Origin: Solirubrobacterales bacterium
GTDB taxonomy: Bacteria > Actinomycetota > Thermoleophilia > Solirubrobacterales > Solirubrobacteraceae
NCBI GenBank assembly: GCA_003165655.1
Contig: PMOY01000232.1
Location: 1 to 45,786, forward strand
Reading direction: 5' to 3'
DNA: 45,786 nt
The notes under the pieces are model-generated. The model saw only the letters and a program-made list of their open reading frames with translations. It ran no database searches and was not told the DNA's origin. Of the stretch, positions 11-38,995 are shown piece after piece; within the stretch, counting starts at the first letter, position 1; every line of letters begins with the position of its first letter. The position numbers were made by a program, and so were the translations under genes.

Positions 11-3000
11 GTGGTCTCGATCGATTGCCTGCTCGACGAGTTGTGGGGGGAGCGTCCGCCGCCGACGGCGGTCCAGACGGTCCGGGTGTACGTCTCGCGC
101 CTACGCAAAGCGCTCGGCGACGGGGTCTTGGAGACGCACGGCCGGGGATATCTGCTCGCGGTCGATCCAGCCCAGATCGATGCAGAGCGCTTCGAGGCGT
201 TCGTCGCCGACGGTCGCGCTGCGCTCGAATCGGGCGAGGCCGGACGCGCCGTCGAGCTGCTGGTCGCCGGGCTTGAGCTGTGGCGCGGCCGGCCGTTGGA
301 AGAGTTCTCGTACGAGCCGTTCGCTCAGCCTGAGATCGCAAGGCTCGACGAGGCGCGGCTCGCGGCGCTCGAGGATCGCATCGACGCTGAGCTGCGCGTG
401 GGTGGCGGGGCGGAGCTCGTGCCCGAGCTCGAGCGGCTCGTGACCGAGCATCCGCTGCGTGAGCGGCTGCTCGCGGGGCTGATGCTCGCCCTTTACCGGG
501 CCGGGCGGCAGGCGGACTCGCTCGCCGCGTACCGGGCCGCGCACCAGCGGCTCGTCGAGGAGCTTGGGTTGGAGCCCGGGCCGGAGCTGCGCGAGCTCGA
601 GCGGCGGATCCTCGAGCACGATCCGACACTCGCGGCGGCGCGTGTCGCCGTTCGCGCTGCAGGACCGCGGATTCGCCGCACCCGCCTGGCTGTGGTGGCG
701 CTCGCGCTCGGGGCGGCGTTCGTAGCCGTGTTTCTGTTCAGCTCCGGGGCTGCTCACCAAGGACCGCCGATGCTCGCCGGCTCGAACGGAATCGTTGAGG
801 TGAACGCCGCGTCTGGCAGGCTTGTGAGCGCGACGCAGCTGTCCGGAACGCCGGGCGCGGTCAGTGGCGGCGGCGGTTCGGTGTGGGTGGCAGATCCGGG
901 TGCGGGGGAGGTCTCGCGGATCGATCCCGGGTCTGGTGTCGTGGTCGATCAGGTCCTGGTGGGCGGCGAGCCAGGGAGCATCGTTGGCGGCGGCGGAGCG
1001 ATCTGGGTGGCGAGCACCGTCGGTGCCACCGTCACGCGGATTGACCCGACGACGGAGGCTGTGACGCAGACGATCTCGCTCCCCGGGGCAAACCCTGGCG
1101 CGATCGCATACGGCAATGGAAGGCTCTGGGTCGCCGATTCAGTCGAGCACGAAGTGTTCGAGATCGACCCAATGACCGGATCGCTGCAGCGAACGTTGTC
1201 GCTTGACCTACAGCCGAGCGCGGTCGTGATCGCGGGCGGTGCGGTCTGGGTGGCGGGGTACAGCAACGCCACGGTCGAGAAGCTTGACCCGATCTCGGGG
1301 CGGGTGCTCGCGCGCGTCCGTGTCGGCGATGGCCCGGCTGCGCTTGCGTTCCAAGCAGGCTCGCTGTGGGTCGCCAACAGCTTGGACGCGACCGTCTCTC
1401 GGATCGACCCAGCCACCCTCGCCGTGACGGCCACGATCCCGGTCGGGAGCGGGCCTACTGCGCTGGCCGCCGGCTCTGGGTCGTTGTGGGTCGCAAATCA
1501 AGACTCCGGCACCGTCTCCCGGGTCGACCCGCGGCTCGATCGCGTCGCGGCCAGCATCGGCGCCGGCGGCGCCCCAACCTCGCTCACGATCAGCGGCAGC
1601 CGCCTATTGGTAGGAGTCGCGGCGAATAGCGGCAGCCACCGCGGCGGGACGCTGGTGATCGTCACACCAGAGACCCTCACCTCATCCAACCCGATGACCC
1701 TCGCTTCTGTCGATCCATTCTTCTACAACTCCGCCAACAACCCCCAGTTCACTGGGCTGGCGTACGACTCCCTGGTCAACTTCCAGCAGAGCCCCGGCGC
1801 CGACGGTCTGCGGCTCGTCCCCGACCTCGCGCTGTCGATCCCGACGCCAAGCTACGGCGGCGCGACCTACGCGTTCCGGATCCGGCCAGGCATCCGCTAC
1901 TCAAACGGGCAGCCACTACGCGCCGGAGACTTCCGACGCGCCTTCGAGCGCCTGTTTCGCGTCGGATCCCCAGGCACCTCGCTGTTCGAGGATGTCGTTG
2001 GAGCTGGCGCATGCATCCAAAAACCGCGCACGTGCAACCTCTCCCAAGGGATTGTCACCAACAACCCCACAAGCGCGGTCACCTTCCACCTCACCGCACC
2101 AGATCCGGATTTCCTGTTCAAGCTCACCGAGTTCGGCTTCTCGGCGCCGATCCCGCCCGGAACGCCAGACCACGAAACCGGCCAGCACGCCGTGCCCGGC
2201 ACCGGGCCCTACGAAATCGCCAGCGTCAGCGACACGGAGGCCCGTTTCGTTCGCAATCCTTTCTTTCGCGAGTGGTCCCATGCCGCACAGCCAGAAGGTA
2301 ATCCCGACTCGATCGTGTGGCGCACAGTGTCTACCGCGCAAGCCGCTGTGACTGCGATCGAGCGGGGACGAGCCGACTGGCTGTTCGGCCAGATCCCAGC
2401 GGCCCAGTACGACCAGCTCAAGCTACGGGACCCGGCTCAGCTGCACTCAAACCCCGAGTTCGCCGTCGAGTTCGTGCCGCTCAACACGCACCTCGCGCCG
2501 TTCAATGACGTTCGCGTCCGGCAGGCGCTCAACTACGCGATCGACCGCGCCAAGATCGCCCGGCTGTACGGCGGCCCGACCTTCGCCACCCCGGCCTGTC
2601 AGCTGATCGCGCCCGGTCTACCCGGCTACCGCCGCTACTGCCCTTACACGCTGCACCCCAGCACCGACGGCGCCTGGAGCGCCCCAGACATGGCGCGCGC
2701 GCGACTGCTTGTCGCGCAGTCTGGAACCCTGGGCGAGCGGATCGACGTTTGGGGCGAGCCCGACCAGGGCTTCGTTCCCCCCACCACCCCGGCGTACGTC
2801 GCCGGCGTCCTCCGCGCGCTCGGTTACCGCGTCCGCCTCCATCTCGTCCCGTCCGCAACCCTCACTGAAGCTATGCACCGGCGGTTCCAGCTGTCCGTCG
2901 ACGGCGACTGGGTAGCCGCCTACCCCTACCCGTCCTCCTACGTGCCCGGGTTCGTCAGCTGCGGTGGTGGCACCAGCAACGGCTACTACTGCAACCCATC

Positions 3001-3217
3001 GCTCGACCGCGAGATGCAAGAAGCTGGGCGGCTCGAACTCGGCGATCCCCGGAAGGCAAGCGCCCTCTGGGCATCGATCGATCGCCAACTCACCGACGAT
3101 GCCGTTTGGGTGCCAACCGTGACCCTGCGCGACGTCGAGGTCACGTCCAGCCATCTCCGCAACTACCAATACAACCCGGTGTGGGGCTTTCTCGCCGACC
3201 AAAGCTGGCTCCGATAG
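11..3217 (+). CDS. BTAD-type transcriptional regulator fused to a TM segment, YVTN-like beta-propeller and family 5 (peptide/oligopeptide) solute-binding domain; 5' end probably lies upstream of the window
   Basis: wHTH tail (TVRVYVSRLRKALG...GRGYLL), BTAD helices (HPLRERLLAGLMLALYRAGRQADSLAAYR...LGLEPGPELRELERRIL), TM RTRLAVVALALGAAFVAVFLF, repeated 'GSLWVAN..TVSRIDP' blades, then SBP_bac_5-like 'RGGTLVIVTPE...LNYAIDRAKIARLYGG'. Confidence 0.9.
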   Translation: MVSIDCLLDELWGERPPPTAVQTVRVYVSRLRKALGDGVLETHGRGYLLAVDPAQIDAERFEAFVADGRAALESGEAGRAVELLVAGLELWRGRPLEEFSYEPFAQPEIARLDEARLAALEDRIDAELRVGGGAELVPELERLVTEHPLRERLLAGLMLALYRAGRQADSLAAYRAAHQRLVEELGLEPGPELRELERRILEHDPTLAAARVAVRAAGPRIRRTRLAVVALALGAAFVAVFLFSSGAAHQGPPMLAGSNGIVEVNAASGRLVSATQLSGTPGAVSGGGGSVWVADPGAGEVSRIDPGSGVVVDQVLVGGEPGSIVGGGGAIWVASTVGATVTRIDPTTEAVTQTISLPGANPGAIAYGNGRLWVADSVEHEVFEIDPMTGSLQRTLSLDLQPSAVVIAGGAVWVAGYSNATVEKLDPISGRVLARVRVGDGPAALAFQAGSLWVANSLDATVSRIDPATLAVTATIPVGSGPTALAAGSGSLWVANQDSGTVSRVDPRLDRVAASIGAGGAPTSLTISGSRLLVGVAANSGSHRGGTLVIVTPETLTSSNPMTLASVDPFFYNSANNPQFTGLAYDSLVNFQQSPGADGLRLVPDLALSIPTPSYGGATYAFRIRPGIRYSNGQPLRAGDFRRAFERLFRVGSPGTSLFEDVVGAGACIQKPRTCNLSQGIVTNNPTSAVTFHLTAPDPDFLFKLTEFGFSAPIPPGTPDHETGQHAVPGTGPYEIASVSDTEARFVRNPFFREWSHAAQPEGNPDSIVWRTVSTAQAAVTAIERGRADWLFGQIPAAQYDQLKLRDPAQLHSNPEFAVEFVPLNTHLAPFNDVRVRQALNYAIDRAKIARLYGGPTFATPACQLIAPGLPGYRRYCPYTLHPSTDGAWSAPDMARARLLVAQSGTLGERIDVWGEPDQGFVPPTTPAYVAGVLRALGYRVRLHLVPSATLTEAMHRRFQLSVDGDWVAAYPYPSSYVPGFVSCGGGTSNGYYCNPSLDREMQEAGRLELGDPRKASALWASIDRQLTDDAVWVPTVTLRDVEVTSSHLRNYQYNPVWGFLADQSWLR
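780..1620 (+). repeat. Tandem beta-propeller blade repeats (~40 aa period) inside the BTAD fusion protein
   Basis: Repeated motif (G)GSVWVADPGAGEVSRIDP / GAIWVASTVGATVTRIDP / GRLWVADSVEHEVFEIDP / GAVWVAGYSNATVEKLDP / GSLWVANSLDATVSRIDP / GSLWVANQDSGTVSRVDP. Confidence 0.85.
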
Positions 3218-3253: not shown

Positions 3254-4063
3254 CTAATCGGACGCAAACCGCCGGCACATCAGGGCCTGCCGCGTCCGGC
3301 GGAAACGGTCACGAACTCGGCAGCGAGCACGTAGCTCGTATCGGTGCGAAGCGGTGCCGAGCTTGTGGAGCTCGAACGCCCGCCCATGACGGGTGTCTTG
3401 CGGGCGCGGGATGCCGTGCGCGCTGATCGTCGGCCTGCCAGCAACCTCGGAGCTCCCCGTCGGCTGAAACCGCAGCGAACTCAGCAGCGCTACCGGGTTT
3501 AGCATGATCTGAAGCTCCTCGCCGATTCCACTCCCCACGCTGGGATCGTCCTGGTTGCTGTGGGCACCGCTTCGCTCGTCCCAGATCCACCCCGGCAGCC
3601 GCGTGATGTAGCTGTTTGCGCGCGGCCGCGCTTCCCAGCGTCGGCCCGCGCTCGGTCCGTGGATCACGCACAACAGCGCGCCGATCGGGAGCTGGCGGCG
3701 GATCTCGAGCCATGAGTCGAGCTGCTCCCACGCCCATCGGTCCATCCCGACCTCGCGTCTCCTGCCGCCCTTACCACGCCGAACGAGCACTGCGCCTCGG
3801 GAACGGTCAAGGTCGCTCTCCTGGAGCGCGAGCGCCTCGCTGATCCGCAGGCCGGCGCGCCAGAGCAGGACGATGAGCGCCCGAAGTCGGTGACCGTCGG
3901 AGCGGTCACCGACGGTACGCATCACGACGACGATCTCCTCAACGGACGGCGGGTCGGCCGGGTACTGCTCGCCTTTGTTTTCGGGGCGGACGCCCTCGGT
4001 TGTAGCCGGGCATGGTCGCCGGTGAGCGGCGATGCCCGCGATGTCCAGCAGCACGGATCCCAT
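3254..4063 (-). pseudogene. Tyrosine recombinase/integrase remnant (frameshifted)
   Basis: RALIVLLWRAGLRISEALALQESDLDRSRGAVLVRRGKGGRRREVGMDRWAWEQLDSWL is integrase-like; downstream homology (SAAARKQLHHAAAGVDLGR) is in another frame and the R-HxxR-H/W-Y box is not intact. Confidence 0.7.
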
Positions 4064-11153: not shown

Positions 11154-11351
11154 GAGGACATCTACGGCTGGGACAACAACAATGACGTCCGCGAGTGGGA
11201 CGCGTGCCCTGACTGCGAGAATCCCCGGGCCCTGCTCGCGCTCGCGAGAACCCGCGTGACCCGCACGCTCTCACGGGAGGAGCTGCAAGAGTTCGGGGTC
11301 GGTGAGACCTCGGCGGCGTGGGCGTCGGCGTCGCCGTTGCGGTGGAATTGA
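11154..11351 (+). pseudogene. C-terminal tail of a WD40-repeat protein (orphan remnant)
   Basis: Translation EDIYGWDNNNDVREWDACPDCENPRALLALARTRVTRTLSREELQEFGVGE resembles tails of actinobacterial WD40 proteins (VWDxCPDCxxxxALLxLAxxRVTRxLTxxE); no blades upstream. Confidence 0.6.
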
Positions 11352-12214
11352 TGCGGATCGCGACCTGGAACGTCAACTCAGTCAAGCAGCGGCTGCCTCG
11401 GCTGCTCCCGTGGCTCGATGAGCGCCAGCCCGACGTCGTGTGTCTCCAGGAGACGAAGCTTGCCGACGATGCGTTCGTCGATCTGGTCGGTGACGAGCTC
11501 GCCAACCGCAGGTATACCGTCGCGCTTCACGGCGAGGCGACGTGGAACGGGGTGGCGATCCTCTCGCGCGTCGGGCTGAGCGACGTTGTCGCGGGCGTCC
11601 CCGGTGCGCCCGGCTTCCCGCATCCGGAGGCGCGCGCGGTGTCGGCGACCTGTGGCGAGATCCGGGTGGTCTCGGTATACGTGCCCAATGGGCGCACGCC
11701 GGGCTCCGAGCACTACCGGTACAAGCTCGCCTGGCTGGCTTCGCTACGGGAGATGGTTGCCGCCGGTCCTCAGGCGACGATCGTATGTGGCGACATGAAC
11801 ATCGCACCGACCGACGACGACGTTTTCGATCCGGACGCCTATGTCGGCCAGACTCATGTCACGCCGCCCGAGCGGGCGGCACTGGCCGAGCTGCAGGCGC
11901 TCGGCTTGCACGACGTGGTGCGCGATCGCTGGCCGAACGAGCGGGTATTCAGCTACTGGGACTACCGGGCAGGGATGTTCCACCAGGACCTCGGGATGCG
12001 GATCGATCTGATCCTTGCCAGCACCCCGGTCGCGAGTCGGGTTCGGGCGGCGTGGGTCGATCGCCAGGCCCGCAAGGGCCGGGGACCAAGCGATCACGCG
12101 CCTGTGATCGCCGACCTGGACGAGGCGCCGGACGGGGACATCGGGCCGGTGGTGCCGCCGCCGTCGGCGCCCGTGACCAAGCGCCGCTCGGTCAAGCTAC
12201 CCCAGTCCCGGTGA
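11351..12214 (+). CDS. xthA: Exodeoxyribonuclease III
   Basis: MRIATWNVNSVKQRLPRLLPWLDERQPDVVCLQETKL...GDMNIAPTDDD...RIDLIL...SDHAPV. Confidence 0.95.
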   Translation: MRIATWNVNSVKQRLPRLLPWLDERQPDVVCLQETKLADDAFVDLVGDELANRRYTVALHGEATWNGVAILSRVGLSDVVAGVPGAPGFPHPEARAVSATCGEIRVVSVYVPNGRTPGSEHYRYKLAWLASLREMVAAGPQATIVCGDMNIAPTDDDVFDPDAYVGQTHVTPPERAALAELQALGLHDVVRDRWPNERVFSYWDYRAGMFHQDLGMRIDLILASTPVASRVRAAWVDRQARKGRGPSDHAPVIADLDEAPDGDIGPVVPPPSAPVTKRRSVKLPQSR

Positions 12215-12217
12215 CGG

Positions 12218-13279
12218 CTACCGGCGGTCTCGATCGCGCGAAGGCTGCACCCGCTTAGGCTCTCCCGGCATCTTCGGGTAGTCGGGCGGGTAGGGTAGGT
12301 CTCCCTTGCCCTCGGTGCCATCGGTCTCGTACATGTCCAAGAGCGGCTGCAACGAGTGGGCCGCGTCGTCGATGGCAGCGTGGAGATCGCCCACCTCGGC
12401 GAAGCGAGCGGGCATCGTCGCCACGGTGAAGTCCTCGGGCGCGACCGTGGGGAGCTCATCCCAGGCCACCGGCGCGGACACCGGCGCGCCCGCCTTGGGC
12501 CGAATGCTGTACGCGGAGGCGATGGTGCGATCACGCGCGTTCTGGTTGTAGTCGACGAAGATGCGCTGGCCGCGCTCCTCCTTCCACCAGTTGGTCGTCA
12601 CCTGGCCGGGGAGACGCCGCTCGAGCTCACGACCGAAGGTGATCGCGGCGTGGCGGACGTCGGTGAACGTCCAGCGTGGCGCGATCCGGACGTAGATATG
12701 GACACCCCGGCCGCCCGACGTCTTCGGGAAGCCGATGTAGCCCAGCTCATGCAAGAGCACGCGGGCCTCGGCGGCGACCCGCACGGCGTCCGCGAAGTCG
12801 GTGCCCGGCTGCGGGTCGAGGTCGATGCGCAGCTCGTCTGGATGGTCAACGTCGTCGCTGCGAACCGGCCACGGGTGAAAGGTGATCGTGCCCATCTGCG
12901 CCGCCCAGCCGACAACTGCCACCTCGGTGGGGCAGATCTCATCCGCGGAGCGCCCCGACGGGAACTGGATCCGTGAAGTCTGCACGTAGTCCGGAGCTCC
13001 CCGCGGGATGCGCTTCTGAAAGAAGGCGTCGCCGCCACCCCGCTCACGGGTCGAGATGACGATGCCCGGGTGGACGCCCTTCGGCCAGCGCTCGAGCGTC
13101 GTCGGTCGCCGCTGGAGTGCGCGCATGATGCCGTCGCCAACGGCGAGGTAGTACTCGACGATGTCGAGCTTTGTCACTGCCCGTGAGCGTTCGGTCATCG
13201 GGAAGATCACGCGCTCGGGGTTGGACACGCGCAAATCGCGCCCACCGGCGTCGACCATGATTGCCTCAGACGCAGCCAT
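12218..13279 (-). CDS. ligD: LigD-type polymerase domain protein (NHEJ primase-polymerase), stand-alone
   Basis: VSNPERVIFP...GPVRSDDVDHPDELRIDLDPQPG...FPKTSGGRGVHIYVRI...FVDYNQNARDRTIASAYSIRP. Confidence 0.92.
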   Translation of the reverse strand: MAASEAIMVDAGGRDLRVSNPERVIFPMTERSRAVTKLDIVEYYLAVGDGIMRALQRRPTTLERWPKGVHPGIVISTRERGGGDAFFQKRIPRGAPDYVQTSRIQFPSGRSADEICPTEVAVVGWAAQMGTITFHPWPVRSDDVDHPDELRIDLDPQPGTDFADAVRVAAEARVLLHELGYIGFPKTSGGRGVHIYVRIAPRWTFTDVRHAAITFGRELERRLPGQVTTNWWKEERGQRIFVDYNQNARDRTIASAYSIRPKAGAPVSAPVAWDELPTVAPEDFTVATMPARFAEVGDLHAAIDDAAHSLQPLLDMYETDGTEGKGDLPYPPDYPKMPGEPKRVQPSRDRDRR

Positions 13280-13353: not shown

Positions 13354-13403
13354 TCATCGGGTCATGCGGGGCGTATGTCATCGGGTCATGCGGAGACGTA
13401 TCG
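13354..13403. repeat. Direct tandem repeat, ~24 bp
   Basis: tcatcgggtcatgcggggcgtatg followed directly by tcatcgggtcatgcggagacgtatcg. Confidence 0.8.
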
Positions 13404-15086
13404 GGCTCCGAGCGTCGCCGCGAGCGTGCGATGAGCCGGTCCGGCTCCGATGAGGATCGAGCGTGAGAGCTCGAGCTCGTGTGCTCGCGCGAAAGCGAGC
13501 GCGAGCCCTGGCAGCGGCGGCCGACACCAGCAGCTCGGGGGGCCGCCTGCGTGGGGACAGAGCGCGCTCTGCACCGGGCCAGAGACCGCGCCGGTGAGGC
13601 GGACGACACAGGGGTCGAGCATGTCCAGTGCGCCGTCGGGGATCCAGTCGAAGATCAGATGTGGCGCGTCGCGATCGCCGCTTTGCAGTGCGTGCTCCCA
13701 AGCTGGTTCCCGCAGCGCCGCTGCCGCAACGAAGACACCCCTGCGCGCACGCTCTGATGATCGGTGGATGCGCCTGAAGGGCATCACCTCCACGCCCGCG
13801 AATCCCTCGTCGGCAGAGGGCGGCTCGAGCTCGCGAAGGGCGCGCATTTGGGACGTCGGGGTGAGCACGCCCTGCGCTCCTCGCGCCAGCTTTCGCAGCT
13901 CGTCGGGGGTCGGGAGAGTCCCGAAACGCTCGAGCAGACGCTCGACAAGATTGACCTGCGCTTGCGCGAGCGGCGTGCTGAGCCACACGCACCTCGTCGG
14001 GATCTGGTGTCGGCTCGCCGCCTCGATCACGTAGCTTCGCGCAGCACGCGCGAGATACGTGTTGTCGAGGACGACCCGCCGAACGCCTGACGACAGCTCC
14101 TCTTCCAGCGCATGGGCGAGCTCGCGCAAGCCGCCGCCGCGCTCGTCGCGGTTGAGACGCAGGTAGCCGCGGGCGACGTACTCCGCGGCGATTCGGCTCT
14201 TCCCGGCGCCCGGGATTCCCATCACGAGGAGCACTTCAGCGTCATCCGGCGGTCGCGGTGGCTCGCGCCGAGCCCGACGGGAGCCGCCGAACACGCGGCC
14301 CAGGACGGCTCGGTCCTCAGCGCCAAGGCCGAGCTGTGCCGCGTGAGCTGCGCTGCGCGCCGTTTCGGGGCGCCGTGCGCCTGGGATCGCGATCACGGCC
14401 GGGGACAGCTCGAGCACCCACGCGAGGGCGACCTCGGCCGGGTCAACGCCGTGTGCGTGCGCGACATCAGCCAACGGCCGGCGTCGAGCCAGGGCGACCG
14501 CGCGACGCGGCCCGCCAAGCGGGGAGTGGGCGATCACCGCGATTCCCATCTCGGCGCAGCGCTCGACGACACCTCCGCGAAGCGCGCGATCATCGTCGAG
14601 ACTGAGCGCGACCTCGACCGCCGTCACCGGAGCGAGCTCGAGCGCCTCGTCGAGTTGCGCGCGATTGACATTCGACAGCCCGACGCGACGCACGACGCCT
14701 TCGGAGATCAGTCGAGCGAGTGCGCGCACCGAGGTGCGCCATGGTGTCCGCGGATCGGGCGCGTGGATGAGATAGACGTCAATCGGTAAGCCGTCGAGGG
14801 CGACCAGGCTCGCCTCGCAGTCACTGAGGATCGCCTTCGCGCGCCCGTCGGGCACCCACGCGCCGTCCGATCGCGTCATGCCCCCTTTTGTCACGATCCG
14901 CGCGGTCCGCTGCCGGCCACACTGTCGCAGAGCAGCGGCCAGGAGCCGCTCGTTGTGACCGAGCTCAGCCTCGCCGCGCCCGTACGCGCGAGCGGTGTCG
15001 AACACGGTGATGCCCGCCTCGGCGGCCGCCGCGATCGTCTCGCCGGCGAGCTCCTCGTCACCGCTCTCGTCGGTCGATAGACGCAT
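13386..15086 (-). CDS. Fusion: aldo/keto reductase - polynucleotide-kinase-like P-loop kinase - HAD-phosphatase-like C-terminal domain (start probably a little upstream of 15086)
   Basis: AKR: GITVFDTARAYGRGEAELGHNERLLAAAL...VYLIHAPDP...VGLSNVN; kinase: LLVMGIPGAGKSRIAAEYVARGYLRLNRDE...RRVVLDNTY; HAD-like: CPHAGGPPSCWCRPPLPGLALAFARAHELELSRSILIGAGPAHRTLAATLGARYV. Confidence 0.85.
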   Translation of the reverse strand: MRLSTDESGDEELAGETIAAAAEAGITVFDTARAYGRGEAELGHNERLLAAALRQCGRQRTARIVTKGGMTRSDGAWVPDGRAKAILSDCEASLVALDGLPIDVYLIHAPDPRTPWRTSVRALARLISEGVVRRVGLSNVNRAQLDEALELAPVTAVEVALSLDDDRALRGGVVERCAEMGIAVIAHSPLGGPRRAVALARRRPLADVAHAHGVDPAEVALAWVLELSPAVIAIPGARRPETARSAAHAAQLGLGAEDRAVLGRVFGGSRRARREPPRPPDDAEVLLVMGIPGAGKSRIAAEYVARGYLRLNRDERGGGLRELAHALEEELSSGVRRVVLDNTYLARAARSYVIEAASRHQIPTRCVWLSTPLAQAQVNLVERLLERFGTLPTPDELRKLARGAQGVLTPTSQMRALRELEPPSADEGFAGVEVMPFRRIHRSSERARRGVFVAAAALREPAWEHALQSGDRDAPHLIFDWIPDGALDMLDPCVVRLTGAVSGPVQSALCPHAGGPPSCWCRPPLPGLALAFARAHELELSRSILIGAGPAHRTLAATLGARYVSA

Positions 15087-15275
15087 GCAGCCGAGGCCGA
15101 CGCGAAGCTCCGAGGGGTCAAGCCATGGAGGGCGACTCAGGCCATAGAGGATAGCCGCGAACCGCCCTCCGGCTGAGTCTCAGGGAGGGCCTGTCGATGA
15201 GATGCGCCCGCGGCATCGCACGATGCGCCACTGCGATCTGGAAATCGGGAGGGTCAACCCGTAGCGTGCCGCGGC

Positions 15276-19710: not shown

Positions 19711-20907
19711 TCAGTCGGGCAGCAGGGGCATCGACAGGCCTGGGTCGCGGCCGAGCAGAACGGCCCGAGTCACGGCGCCCGACCCAAACCGCTCACGAAT
19801 GTCGTCGATGGCGGCGTCGAGGGCGCTGCTGCCGCGTCGATCGAACGGCAGCACGAGTTGCACCGCGCCGTCGTTGCTGAGGTTGCCGATCGCGACGCCC
19901 ACGAGCGTGAGGCCCCGACGCTCGATCGTGGGCGCGGCAGCACACACCAGTGCCCTGACCGTGGCGAGGATCGTTCCCGTATGTGCGGTGGCGTGAGCAA
20001 GGGTATGTGAACGCGATGCTCGCGAGAAGTCATCGAAGCGCAAGCGCAGGACGACGGTGCGCCCGACGCGCCCGGACGCGCGCATCCGACGAGTGACGCG
20101 GTCGACGAGGCCGACAACCACGGTATCGATCTCGTCGGGCGATGTTCGTGACCGGCCGAGGGCGTGCTGTGACCCGATCGAGCGACGGCGGCGGCGCCCT
20201 TGCACCGGACGAGGGTCCCGGTTGTGGGACAGCGCGTGCAGGTGGCGCCCCGACGCCCGACCGATGATCGAGACCAACTCCTGCTCGCTGAGGCCGGCGA
20301 TCTCGCCGACGGTCGTGATCCCCCGGCGGCGCAGCTTGAGGGACGTCACTCGCCCCACGCCCCAGAGCCTTTCGACGGGCAGGGGGTGCAGGAAGGCCAG
20401 CTCCCCGTCGGCCGGCACAAGCAGCAGGCCGTCGGGCTTGGCCACGCCGCTCGCAACCTTCGCGAGGAACTTGGTCCGTGCTACTCCAACGGTGATCGGC
20501 AGGCCGACGCGCTGGGCGACACGGTGTCGCAGCCTCGCCGCGATCTCGATCGGCCTGCCCGAAATCCTCCCCAGCCCACGCACGTCGAGGAACGCCTCGT
20601 CGATCGATAGGCCCTCGACCAGCGGCGCCGTCTCCTCGAACACTTCGAACACCGCCTTGCTCGCCTCGGCATAGGCCGACATGCGGGGCGCAACGACGGC
20701 TGCCCGGGGACATAATCGACGCGCCTGGTTCCCGCCCATCGCTGTCCGCACGCCTTGGGCCTTGGCCTCGTAGCTGGCCGCCAGCACGACGCCCGCGCCG
20801 ACGATCACCGGTCGCCCGCGCAAGCGAGGATCGTCTCGCTGCTCGACCGATGCGTAGAACGCGTCGAGATCGGCATGCAAGATCGTGGCCTCAGCCGACA
20901 CGAACAT
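19711..20907 (-). CDS. dinB: DNA polymerase IV (Y-family)
   Basis: ILHADLDAFYASVEQRDDPRLRGRPVIVG...EGLSIDEAFLDV...VARTKFLAKVASGVAKPDGLL. Confidence 0.96.
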   Translation of the reverse strand: MFVSAEATILHADLDAFYASVEQRDDPRLRGRPVIVGAGVVLAASYEAKAQGVRTAMGGNQARRLCPRAAVVAPRMSAYAEASKAVFEVFEETAPLVEGLSIDEAFLDVRGLGRISGRPIEIAARLRHRVAQRVGLPITVGVARTKFLAKVASGVAKPDGLLLVPADGELAFLHPLPVERLWGVGRVTSLKLRRRGITTVGEIAGLSEQELVSIIGRASGRHLHALSHNRDPRPVQGRRRRRSIGSQHALGRSRTSPDEIDTVVVGLVDRVTRRMRASGRVGRTVVLRLRFDDFSRASRSHTLAHATAHTGTILATVRALVCAAAPTIERRGLTLVGVAIGNLSNDGAVQLVLPFDRRGSSALDAAIDDIRERFGSGAVTRAVLLGRDPGLSMPLLPD

Positions 20908-26368: not shown

Positions 26369-26920
26369 CTACACGCCGGCTCGAGCCTTGGACCACTCGG
26401 CCTTGTGGGCGCGCTTGGCTGCTTGGTAGTCCGCGAGCGCCTGCGGCGAGTCGACGTCACCGAGCGTGGGATGCCACGGGACGAGCTCGCGGGCGGCATC
26501 GACACCGAAGCGCTTGGCGAGCACGGCCCCCAGGGCCTTGACCTTCATTTCACCGAAGCCGGGGAGCGCGAGCAGGTTGGCGCGCAGCGCATCCGTGTCG
26601 GCCGCGTCGGTCCAGACGCGCGCGGCATCGCCGTCGTAACGGTTGCCTACATACACCGCGAGGTCGTGCACGCGTCTGGCCATCGAGCCGGGAAAGCGGT
26701 GGATCGCCGGCTTGTCGCGGAATACGGCCTCCAGGTCCGCCGACGCCAGCGTGGCCGCGTCGATCCCACCGAGGCGCTCCTTGAGCTCGAGCGGTCCGGC
26801 GAACGCCTTCTGCACGGTGACCTGCTGATCGAGCACGAAGCCCACGAGCAATGCCATCGGGTCCGCGGCGATCAAGGCGTTAGCCGCGTCGGATTCGGTG
26901 AAGTACAGCCGGTCGGGCAT
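26369..26920 (-). CDS. HhH-GPD-type base excision DNA repair protein
   Basis: LLVGFVLDQQVTVQKAFAGPLELKERLGG...LLALPGFGEMKVKALGAVLAKRFGV. Confidence 0.88.
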   Translation of the reverse strand: MPDRLYFTESDAANALIAADPMALLVGFVLDQQVTVQKAFAGPLELKERLGGIDAATLASADLEAVFRDKPAIHRFPGSMARRVHDLAVYVGNRYDGDAARVWTDAADTDALRANLLALPGFGEMKVKALGAVLAKRFGVDAARELVPWHPTLGDVDSPQALADYQAAKRAHKAEWSKARAGV

Positions 26921-36288: not shown

Positions 36289-38268
36289 CTACCAGTGCAC
36301 ACCGCGCATCAAGTGCGCGAGCGCGACCTGCTCCGTCGAGGCGTGTTCGTCGGGATCCTTCGTGCCCTTGGCGGCGGCGGAGTCGGGAAACACCTTGTAT
36401 GCCGCCCCGAGAATCTGGTCGACCGCCTTCGGGAACAGCGCGTAGGCGACCTCGCCGAACGTGCCCAGGCGGGTGTTGATCTGCTTGGGCTTGGATCTGA
36501 TCGCTTCGCAGATCAGATCGGCCGCCTGTTCGGAGGAGATCGTCGGGAAGCTCTCGTAGATCTTCGTGGGAGCGATCATCGGCGTGCGGACGAGCGGCAT
36601 GTGGATGGTCGTGAAATGGACGTTGTCGCCAATGCACTCCGAGCCGACGACTCGCGTCCACGCGTCCAGTGCCGCCTTCGACGCCACGTAAGCCGAGAAC
36701 CGTGGGGGACTCGTCTGGACCCCGATCGAGGAGACATTGACGATCACTCCGGTCCTGCGCTCGCGCATCCCGGGCAGTAGGCCCATGATCAACTTGATCG
36801 TGCCGAGGTAATTGAGCTGGATCGTCCGCTCGAAGTCGTGGAAGCGGTCGTAGGACAGGGCGATCGAGCGCCGGATCGAGCGCCCCGCGTTGTTGACGAG
36901 GACGTCGATCGCGGCGTGATCGCCGAGGACGCGCTCGCAGAGGTCCTCGATCGAGTCCGGGCTCGAGAGGTCGGCCGAGTAGGCGTACGCGGTGCCCCCC
37001 AGGTCTTCGATCTCCTGCCTGGTCTCCTCGAGCTTTTCCATTCCCCGCGCGACGAGGATCGGGATCCCGCCCGCCTTCGCGATCTTGATCGCCGCGGCCC
37101 TGCCGATCCCGCTCGAGGCGCCCGTGATCAGCACCGTCCTGCCGGCGATCGCGCCCTCGAAGCTGCGGTCCTTGAACAGGTCCGGGTCGAGGTTGCGCGC
37201 CCAGAAGTCCCAGAGCTTGTCAGCGTAGGTATCGAGCGGCGGCACCGAGATCCCGGTGCCCTCCAGCGCGCGCTCGGTGTCGCGCGTGTCGAACTGGGCG
37301 GTCAGGCCCACATAGCCGAGCACCTCTTCGGGGATGCCGAAGTCCGCGAGCAGGGCGCGCCGCACGCCGCGGGCCGCCGGGAGCGCCATCAGCATCGACA
37401 GCGTGCCCTTGGGAAGGGCCTGGAGCATGCGCGTGTCGATCCGGAGCGTCAGCTGCGGCGCGTGCGCGGCCCTGGCGAACGTATTGATCACGTCTCCGGA
37501 GCGCTGCGCTTTCGGGGCGGCGAGGTGGAATGCCCGCCCGTCGAGGCCGGGGAGGTGGGCGATGTGGTCGAGCGCGGCGGCGACGAAGTCGACCGGGACG
37601 ATGTTCGTGTAGCCGAGCTCCGGGCCGACGAGGGGAAACCACTCGGGGAGGTAGTGCCGGGCGATCTTAATTGCGGTGAAGAAGTAGTAGGGGCCGTCGA
37701 TCTTGTCCATCTCGCCGGTCTGCGAGTGGCCGACGACGACCGCCGGCCGGTAGACGCGCCACGGGACCGTCGTCTGAGTGCGCGCGATCTTCTCGGACTC
37801 GAACTTGGTGCGGTGGTAGGGATGGCCCAGCTGCTGGCCCTCGTCGAACATGTCCTCGCGGAACAGCCCCTTGTACTGGCCGGCGGCGGCGATCGAGGAG
37901 ACGTGGTGGAAGCGCCCGGCATGGATCGTGTTCGCGAGCTCGACGGCGTGACGCGTTCCTTCGACGTTTGCGATTCGGTTCGCCTCCTCATCCGCGGTCA
38001 TGTCGTACACGGCGGCGAGATGGAAGAAGTGCGCGACGGCACCCGAGAGCTCCGTGATCTGCTCCTCGGAGACCCCGAGCCGCGGTGCGGTCAGGTCGCC
38101 GAGCACCGGGCGGATGCGATCGCCTGCTCCCCAGCGCCGCGTCAACCGATCGAGCCGATCGATCGATCCCTCCCGCACAAGGACGTACACATCCCCGTCA
38201 CGCTCGAGCAGGCGCTCGACGAGATTGCGGCCGATGAACCCGGTCGCGCCGGTGACGAAGTAAGACAT
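36289..38268 (-). CDS. Two-domain SDR protein: extended SDR/NAD-binding-4-like plus classical SDR (acyl-CoA/aldehyde reductase-like)
   Basis: N-terminal YFVTGATGFIGRNLVERLL...YHRTKFESEKIA; C-terminal VLITGASSGIGRAAAIKIAKAG...VNNAGRSI...YVASKAALDAW. Confidence 0.9.
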   Translation of the reverse strand: MSYFVTGATGFIGRNLVERLLERDGDVYVLVREGSIDRLDRLTRRWGAGDRIRPVLGDLTAPRLGVSEEQITELSGAVAHFFHLAAVYDMTADEEANRIANVEGTRHAVELANTIHAGRFHHVSSIAAAGQYKGLFREDMFDEGQQLGHPYHRTKFESEKIARTQTTVPWRVYRPAVVVGHSQTGEMDKIDGPYYFFTAIKIARHYLPEWFPLVGPELGYTNIVPVDFVAAALDHIAHLPGLDGRAFHLAAPKAQRSGDVINTFARAAHAPQLTLRIDTRMLQALPKGTLSMLMALPAARGVRRALLADFGIPEEVLGYVGLTAQFDTRDTERALEGTGISVPPLDTYADKLWDFWARNLDPDLFKDRSFEGAIAGRTVLITGASSGIGRAAAIKIAKAGGIPILVARGMEKLEETRQEIEDLGGTAYAYSADLSSPDSIEDLCERVLGDHAAIDVLVNNAGRSIRRSIALSYDRFHDFERTIQLNYLGTIKLIMGLLPGMRERRTGVIVNVSSIGVQTSPPRFSAYVASKAALDAWTRVVGSECIGDNVHFTTIHMPLVRTPMIAPTKIYESFPTISSEQAADLICEAIRSKPKQINTRLGTFGEVAYALFPKAVDQILGAAYKVFPDSAAAKGTKDPDEHASTEQVALAHLMRGVHW

Positions 38269-38308
38269 GTCGCTCCCTCTGAGATTGGTCAGGGCAAGCG
38301 TAGATGCC

Positions 38309-38995
38309 CTACAGGTTGATTGCGAGCTGGGCGCGGAGCTGGCGGTGTCCGTCACCGGTGATGTTGACGGCGCGGGTGTCCGGGCGGCGGCGAATCCAGT
38401 CGAGCTCGAACAGGCGGGCGGCGAGCGCGGCGCCGAGCGACCCGGCGAGGTGGGGGCGGCGTTCGGTCCAATCCAAGCAGGGGCGAGTGAGGGCCCGCGG
38501 CCGGGAACGCAGGTCGTCGACGTCGATCCCGAACGCGTTCAGGCGTTGGCGGCCCGCGTGGGTGAGGGAGTAACCCTCCTCCTGGGGTCCGATCAGGCCT
38601 GCTCGCAGGAGCGAGTCGGTGAGAGCGACGCCGAGCTCGCCCGCGAGGTGGTCGTAACAGGTGCGTGCGTGGCGGATCGCCTCGCCGCGGCTGGACTCGC
38701 GCAGGCTGCGTGCGCGGCGCTCGGGAGCGATCGCGAGCAGGGCCTCGATGGCTGCGGCGATGTGGCGGTCGGCGAGGCGGTAGTAGCGGTTGCGTCCGCG
38801 GCGCTCGGCGACCAGCAGCCCGCCGTCGGTGAGCTTGCCCAGATGCGCGCTCGCCAGCGACGAGGAGACGCCCGCTCGGGCGGCGAGAGCGCGTGCGGGG
38901 AGCTCATCGCCCCCGAGCAACGCGAGGAGCATGCTCGCGCGGTTGCCTTCGCCCATCAGCGCGGCGACCGCGGCGAGGTCGGCGTCGGCAAGCAT
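38309..38995 (-). CDS. ArsR/SmtB family transcriptional regulator
   Basis: LMGEGNRASMLLALLGGDELPARALAARAGVSSSLASAHLGKLTDGGLLVAERRGRNRYYRLAD. Confidence 0.92.
   Translation of the reverse strand: MLADADLAAVAALMGEGNRASMLLALLGGDELPARALAARAGVSSSLASAHLGKLTDGGLLVAERRGRNRYYRLADRHIAAAIEALLAIAPERRARSLRESSRGEAIRHARTCYDHLAGELGVALTDSLLRAGLIGPQEEGYSLTHAGRQRLNAFGIDVDDLRSRPRALTRPCLDWTERRPHLAGSLGAALAARLFELDWIRRRPDTRAVNITGDGHRQLRAQLAINL

Follow-up and report, generated by a model that had tools for sequence, protein, structure and literature searches.

Among polynucleotide kinases, T4 Pnk and C. thermocellum Pnkp are both tied to RNA repair. A bacterial protein that combines such a kinase with another domain, D. 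radiodurans DRB0098 (HD-PNKP), has reported kinase activity and is encoded in a putative DNA-repair operon (PMC1997131). Oxidation of C5' by radicals and enediynes produces nucleoside 5'-aldehyde termini (PMC3825254; PMC3950721). Breaks made by neocarzinostatin carry such 5'-aldehyde ends, which chemists use borohydride to reduce to 5'-OH (PMC3950721), and the enzymatic resolution of these ends has been called 'essentially unknown' in a review (PMC3825254). We searched the literature for a protein or fusion joining an aldo/keto reductase (AKR) to a polynucleotide kinase (PNK) and found no description, although absence there is not proof. Here we analyze such a fusion, encoded within a stretch of 45,786 nucleotides from a Solirubrobacterales bacterium (hereafter the window).

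The list of open reading frames contains a single open frame of 566 amino acids on the minus strand at 13386..15086, starting at an ATG (15084-15086). The sequence PSELRVGLGC, in frame 5' of this ATG, is conserved in other species in the homologue alignment, and no ATG, GTG or TTG codon occurs in frame from the upstream stop to this ATG. A CTG at 15138-15140 is kept in six species of the genus, and GTG or TTG occurs at or near its position in four other carriers (G349, G246, G002 and G443). Because the upstream frame is conserved and several homologues have CTG, GTG or TTG at or near this position, the CTG is likely to be the true, non-standard start of the gene, which would then span 13386..15140. 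The earlier note on this DNA had likewise suggested a start further 5'. It had also read an AKR, a kinase and a HAD-like segment in one frame, and domain searches with Pfam and NCBIfam bear out this three-part architecture. The AKR domain (14289..15116, minus strand) was identified by Pfam PF00248, Aldo_ket_red, with an E value of 1.6e-42 over residues 7-258 of the 566-aa frame. Its catalytic tetrad, numbered in a 576-aa frame, consists of D40 (14997-14999), Y45 (14982-14984), K77 (14886-14888) and H118 (14763-14765), all on the minus strand and invariant in ten aligned full-length homologues. An AlphaFold2 model of the domain found its best PDB matches with Foldseek among NADPH-dependent AKRs, including perakine reductase, AKR13B2 and Tm1743. 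The profile match, the invariant tetrad and the fold all place the domain in the (beta/alpha)8 AKR superfamily. Judged by these residues it should be an active reductase, and it probably uses NADPH. The solved enzymes closest to it have small-molecule substrates (perakine, tylosin, pyridoxal).

The kinase domain lies at 13770..14240 on the minus strand and contains the motifs GIPGAGKS (14196-14219, with K306), RLNRDERGG (D324), VLDNT (D351), QxNxVERLL (R393) and LEPPxxDEGF. The P-loop, LNRDE and VVLDNTY from which a Pnkp-like kinase had originally been proposed are present as described. The roles given here to K306 (Walker), D324 (NRD), D351 (DNT) and R393 (probable lid arginine) follow established studies of T4 Pnkp and PNKP. 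These four residues are invariant in the homologue alignment, and the active-site motifs of the AKR and the kinase are invariant across homologues from different families. Pfam reports AAA_33 (E 1.5e-12) at residues 285-386 of the 566-aa frame. Among the NCBIfam models, TIGR01663 (polynucleotide phosphatase/kinase) matches the kinase region with an E value of 2.8e-15 (2.9e-16 for the domain alone); the domain alone scores 59 bits against a curated cut-off of 502.8 bits, marking it as related to that family and not as an equivalog. The closest sequence matches are to mammalian PNKP, and the alignment with mouse PNKP in the PDB (E 1.8e-10) takes in the motifs GxPGAGKS, GY..NRD and DNT as well as EGF..F at the end of the domain. 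Predicted structures had a mean pLDDT of 83.7 for the kinase-HAD part and modest confidence for the full-length protein (pLDDT 79, pTM 0.50). With Foldseek, the kinase model came closest to PNKP structures (29% identity, E 2.1e-10), ahead of two fungal kinases whose substrate is not stated, T4 Pnk and C. thermocellum Pnkp, and these together account for its top 18 structural matches, in line with the Pnkp-like assignment. A small-molecule kinase family had been named as the finding that would speak against this assignment; in the sequence, profile and structure searches none matched the domain better. With a P-loop NTPase fold, the NRD and DNT aspartates and a better match to PNKs than to small-molecule kinases, the domain is of PNK type by each sequence and structure test applied, and would be expected to phosphorylate 5'-OH ends.

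The C-terminal segment (13389..13745, minus strand) was compared with GmhB-type structures and with intact phage homologues. NCBIfam gave weak matches to histidinol-phosphate and heptose-bisphosphate (HisB/GmhB) phosphatases (E 0.002-0.005), and the C-terminal 120 residues align with the GmhB-type structures 3l8h (E 8e-9) and 4pnh (E 1e-7). The segment has the CxH...CxC zinc loop of the HAD-IIIA group, here CPH..CWCRPP, in which C520, H522, C529 and C531 are kept and the cysteines and histidine are invariant. The catalytic motifs have fared differently in every homologue aligned. The DxD nucleophile of motif I has given way to a run of alanines, which reads VFVAAAAL in the window, the Thr/Ser of motif II is gone, and the VGDxxxD of motif IV has become IGxxxAHR or similar, with its Asp replaced. 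Because motifs I, II and IV are lost in every member, the segment is, by its motifs, a catalytically dead pseudo-phosphatase throughout the family, and we rejected an active 3'-phosphatase on these grounds. The Cys-rich HAD-like segment of the earlier note is thus real, as its GmhB-type alignment and zinc loop attest, but catalytically degenerate. The kinase-phosphatase pair that the same note implied does not hold, since the HAD nucleophile and metal-binding aspartates are missing in every member. The protein as a whole is, on its motifs, not a PNKP, because an active phosphatase was sought in it and the catalytic residues are lost. The segment now probably serves as a zinc-stabilized binding or structural module.

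Two huge uncultured phages encode the same kinase-HAD pair in T4 order, with a GmhB-like HAD, intact phosphatase motifs and no reductase (LR756511.1 and LR756500.1, at L116 5965-6933 and L117 4001-4927; both records are unannotated). In these proteins the three motifs read ILDYDDTLR or LIDLDGTVR, SNQSG or TNQSG, and VGDQTTDE or IGDSTSDK. The match to the LR756511.1 protein spans 94% of the kinase-HAD part of the fusion, and NCBIfam assigns that protein to PNK-3'Pase (8e-25) and HAD-IIIA (2e-22). From this comparison of motifs, the fusion looks like a T4-order kinase-phosphatase in which the phosphatase has died and a reductase has been added. Near the phage gene we read by eye a short frame resembling an HD hydrolase (L116 4712-4996) and a frame resembling a glutamine-dependent NAD synthetase (L116 7898-9577).

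We found 11 complete and five damaged or contig-cut homologues, in 16 genomes from four families and two classes. Full-length homologues in other genomes are 64-80% identical. Five belong to the same genus (G001 among them) and are 66-79% identical; beyond the genus, two occur in family f7 (G324 and G349), two in family f11 (G228 and G246) and one in a different class (G443). The family is patchy: carriers make up 8 of the 28 genus genomes searched and 5 of 103 in f7, with one further carrier among 397 genomes sampled from the phylum. A single-sequence scan of genome contigs matched ordinary AKRs only, searches of plasmids and IMG/VR with the kinase-HAD part gave no matches, and a search with defence-system models gave none either. 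A search for WhiB, meant to place the genome among Actinomycetota, was negative. It might be argued that assembly or sequencing error fused two genes, since the genome assembly is fragmented and stops or frameshifts interrupt a few copies. G002, of the same genus, has a whole-length homologue interrupted by one in-frame TAG; a stop, frameshifts or lost sequence mark the copies of G002, G365 and G302 as damaged, and contig ends truncate two further copies (G286 and G008). Against this stand the continuous frame in eleven complete copies from different genomes, the presence of both AKR and kinase in one chain at every complete locus, and dN/dS values of 0.14-0.51 across all three domains, which indicate purifying selection and do not exceed 0.51 in any of them. 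We therefore rejected an artefact, whose probability we regard as negligible, and the joining of two genes by sequencing error, which had been raised as a threat to the original reading, is contradicted by independent genomes that carry one continuous gene. In the copy of G302 (L059 900-1700, minus strand) the kinase stretch is apparently lost and the frame shifted, which suggests decay or mis-assembly.

The gene next downstream of the fusion, on the same strand and 106 bases away, encodes a LigD primase-polymerase (12218..13279, minus strand; PF21686 E 3.5e-88, TIGR02778 over its cut-off), the polymerase of non-homologous end joining (NHEJ). Convergent with this LigD-Pol gene lies a gene of the exonuclease III/AP endonuclease family (11318..12214, plus strand; PF03372 E 3.7e-30), and the pair is conserved in the genus even where the fusion lies elsewhere. 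In G001 the fusion and LigD-Pol genes overlap by 11 bases, and in G349, from a different family, LigD-Pol, a PolX-type HHH+PHP gene and the fusion follow one another on one strand. About 0.06 loci with LigD-Pol within 3 kb of the fusion would be expected by chance and two independent ones were seen; from the observed copy numbers, the probability of at least two such loci is ~0.002, in a test made after the first case had been seen. This adjacency in two lineages lends moderate support to work on DNA. An NHEJ component would be expected to show ku or ligD linkage in most carriers; here, linkage to LigD-Pol occurs in two lineages only, the P value of ~0.002 being post hoc. The other carriers have unrelated neighbours, and in most carriers the neighbourhoods differ; many of them hold metabolic genes (LysE, class IV aminotransferase, glyoxalase, epimerase). 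Upstream of orthologous LigD-Pol genes in fusion-free positions we found varied genes, among which no kinase was recognized by eye. The genome encodes Ku and LigD. We discarded their co-occurrence with the fusion as a functional test because it is uninformative: LigD-Pol is found in 35 of 36 genomes and Ku in 26 of 36, fusion present or absent, and LigD-Pol, in one to six copies, is almost ubiquitous among the genomes examined, whether they carry the fusion or not.

Several other features were seen in and around these loci. DNA-repair genes are frequent in the window between 11318 and 26920, where exonuclease III and LigD-Pol are accompanied by DNA polymerase IV (19711-20907) and an HhH-GPD glycosylase (26369-26920). 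A 1068-aa chain at 11-3217 (plus strand) combines a BTAD transcription-activator domain, a beta-propeller region and a family 5 solute-binding domain, and a 688-aa fusion at 36289-38355 (minus strand) joins NAD_binding_4 (fatty-acyl reductase-like) to a short-chain dehydrogenase. A short tyrosine-recombinase (phage integrase) frame at 3254-4063 (minus strand), whose match to the Pfam model is confined to its first half, is possibly a mobile-element remnant. In G246 the fusion is immediately preceded, in the same orientation, by a SurE nucleotidase gene (L057 5255-6100), whose frame abuts or overlaps that of the fusion.

We tentatively favour, at less than even odds, the view that the fusion is an enzyme that heals nucleic-acid ends, most likely of DNA, by two sequential reactions on the 5' side of a strand break. 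The AKR, with NADPH, would reduce a carbonyl on the terminal sugar to an alcohol, the best candidate substrate being a nucleoside 5'-aldehyde from radical or enediyne attack at C5', which would yield a normal 5'-OH. The kinase, whose family and active-site residues are seen in the sequence, would use ATP to convert this 5'-OH to the 5'-phosphate required by LigD or another ligase. The two steps in succession would give a joinable end with no nucleotide lost, and the two domains would be fused because the product of the AKR is the substrate of the kinase. End healing is favoured by a kinase nearest PNKP in sequence and predicted structure, by active-site residues that stay unchanged between families, by the retention of AKR and kinase in one chain at the complete loci, by the LigD-Pol adjacency, and by huge-phage homologues that are two-domain kinase-phosphatases. 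Against it count the patchy distribution, the differing neighbourhoods in most carriers, the small-molecule substrates of the AKR relatives, net domain charges near neutral, and a search of the fusion protein for a DNA-binding domain that found none. The narrower claim, that this is the first enzyme to repair DNA 5'-aldehyde termini directly and without nucleotide loss, serving NHEJ after radical or enediyne damage, is more speculative, and we consider it rather improbable as it stands.

If the protein were instead a small-molecule pathway enzyme, the AKR would reduce an aldehyde or ketone metabolite and the kinase would phosphorylate the resulting alcohol, with no role in nucleic acids. Small-molecule substrates of the related AKRs, metabolic genes in many neighbourhoods and the GmhB/HisB sugar-phosphate type of the HAD relic are all consistent with this alternative, which is possible though on the unlikely side; yet the kinase matches are polynucleotide kinases while small-molecule kinase families gave no match, the phage relatives combine this kinase with a HAD-IIIA phosphatase that is intact and are recognized by the PNK-3'Pase model, and LigD-Pol adjoins the gene in two lineages. 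A role in RNA repair, with the kinase healing 5'-OH RNA ends left by ribonuclease toxins and the AKR acting on oxidized or modified RNA or an associated aldehyde, would accord with the structural kinship of the kinase to T4 Pnk and C. thermocellum Pnkp, and the huge-phage homologues may themselves serve RNA repair. We consider it unlikely, as the neighbours examined included no recognizable RNA ligase, Hen1 or RtcB and the linked genes are those of DNA repair. The earlier note had proposed that the AKR may detoxify a carbonyl on a sugar or abasic DNA end, naming 3'-phospho-unsaturated aldehydes and abasic sites as substrates to try; in this reading the kinase would meanwhile heal the 5' end of that break. 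An abasic site, once reduced, is lyase-resistant, and a reduced 3' aldehyde leaves the 3' end still blocked and not joinable; neither product supplies the kinase with a substrate. Ku, which this genome encodes, speaks for that proposal in that bacterial Ku has AP-lyase activity leaving 3'-unsaturated aldehydes (PMC4245934), but a literature search for AKRs acting on abasic or 3'-unsaturated-aldehyde ends found nothing relevant, and we judge the proposal unlikely. Because reducing a 3' block yields neither a kinase substrate nor a joinable 3' end, a 5'-aldehyde fits the fusion better than a 3'-unsaturated aldehyde or an abasic site and is the most plausible candidate substrate.

The fusion is a concrete candidate enzyme for the 5'-aldehyde DNA ends left by radiation and enediyne antibiotics. 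Should 5'-end healing prove correct, a PNKP-type enzyme with a dead phosphatase and an added redox domain would be a new build of end-healing enzyme, and redox chemistry would join the known end-healing activities (kinase, phosphatase, phosphodiesterase and polymerase). Compared with described systems, the fusion kinase has in common with mammalian PNKP the P-loop, NRD, DNT and EGF motifs and the predicted fold, but PNKP carries an active HAD 3'-phosphatase N-terminal to its kinase, whereas the fusion carries a reductase N-terminally and a dead HAD C-terminally. T4 Pnkp and the proteins of LR756511.1 and LR756500.1 have the same kinase-then-HAD order as the fusion; unlike it, they keep their phosphatase motifs intact and have no reductase. 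The bacterial AKRs Tm1743, AKR13, perakine reductase and PdxI share the fold, the catalytic tetrad and probable NADPH use with the fusion AKR, to which they are ~30% identical, but they are stand-alone small-molecule reductases. LigD, the multi-tool of bacterial NHEJ, likewise processes DNA ends, and a homologue of its polymerase domain is encoded by the gene neighbouring the fusion. The nearest bacterial analogue is DRB0098, in which a PNK is also fused to another domain and encoded in a putative DNA-repair operon, with an HD hydrolase as the partner where the fusion has a reductase.
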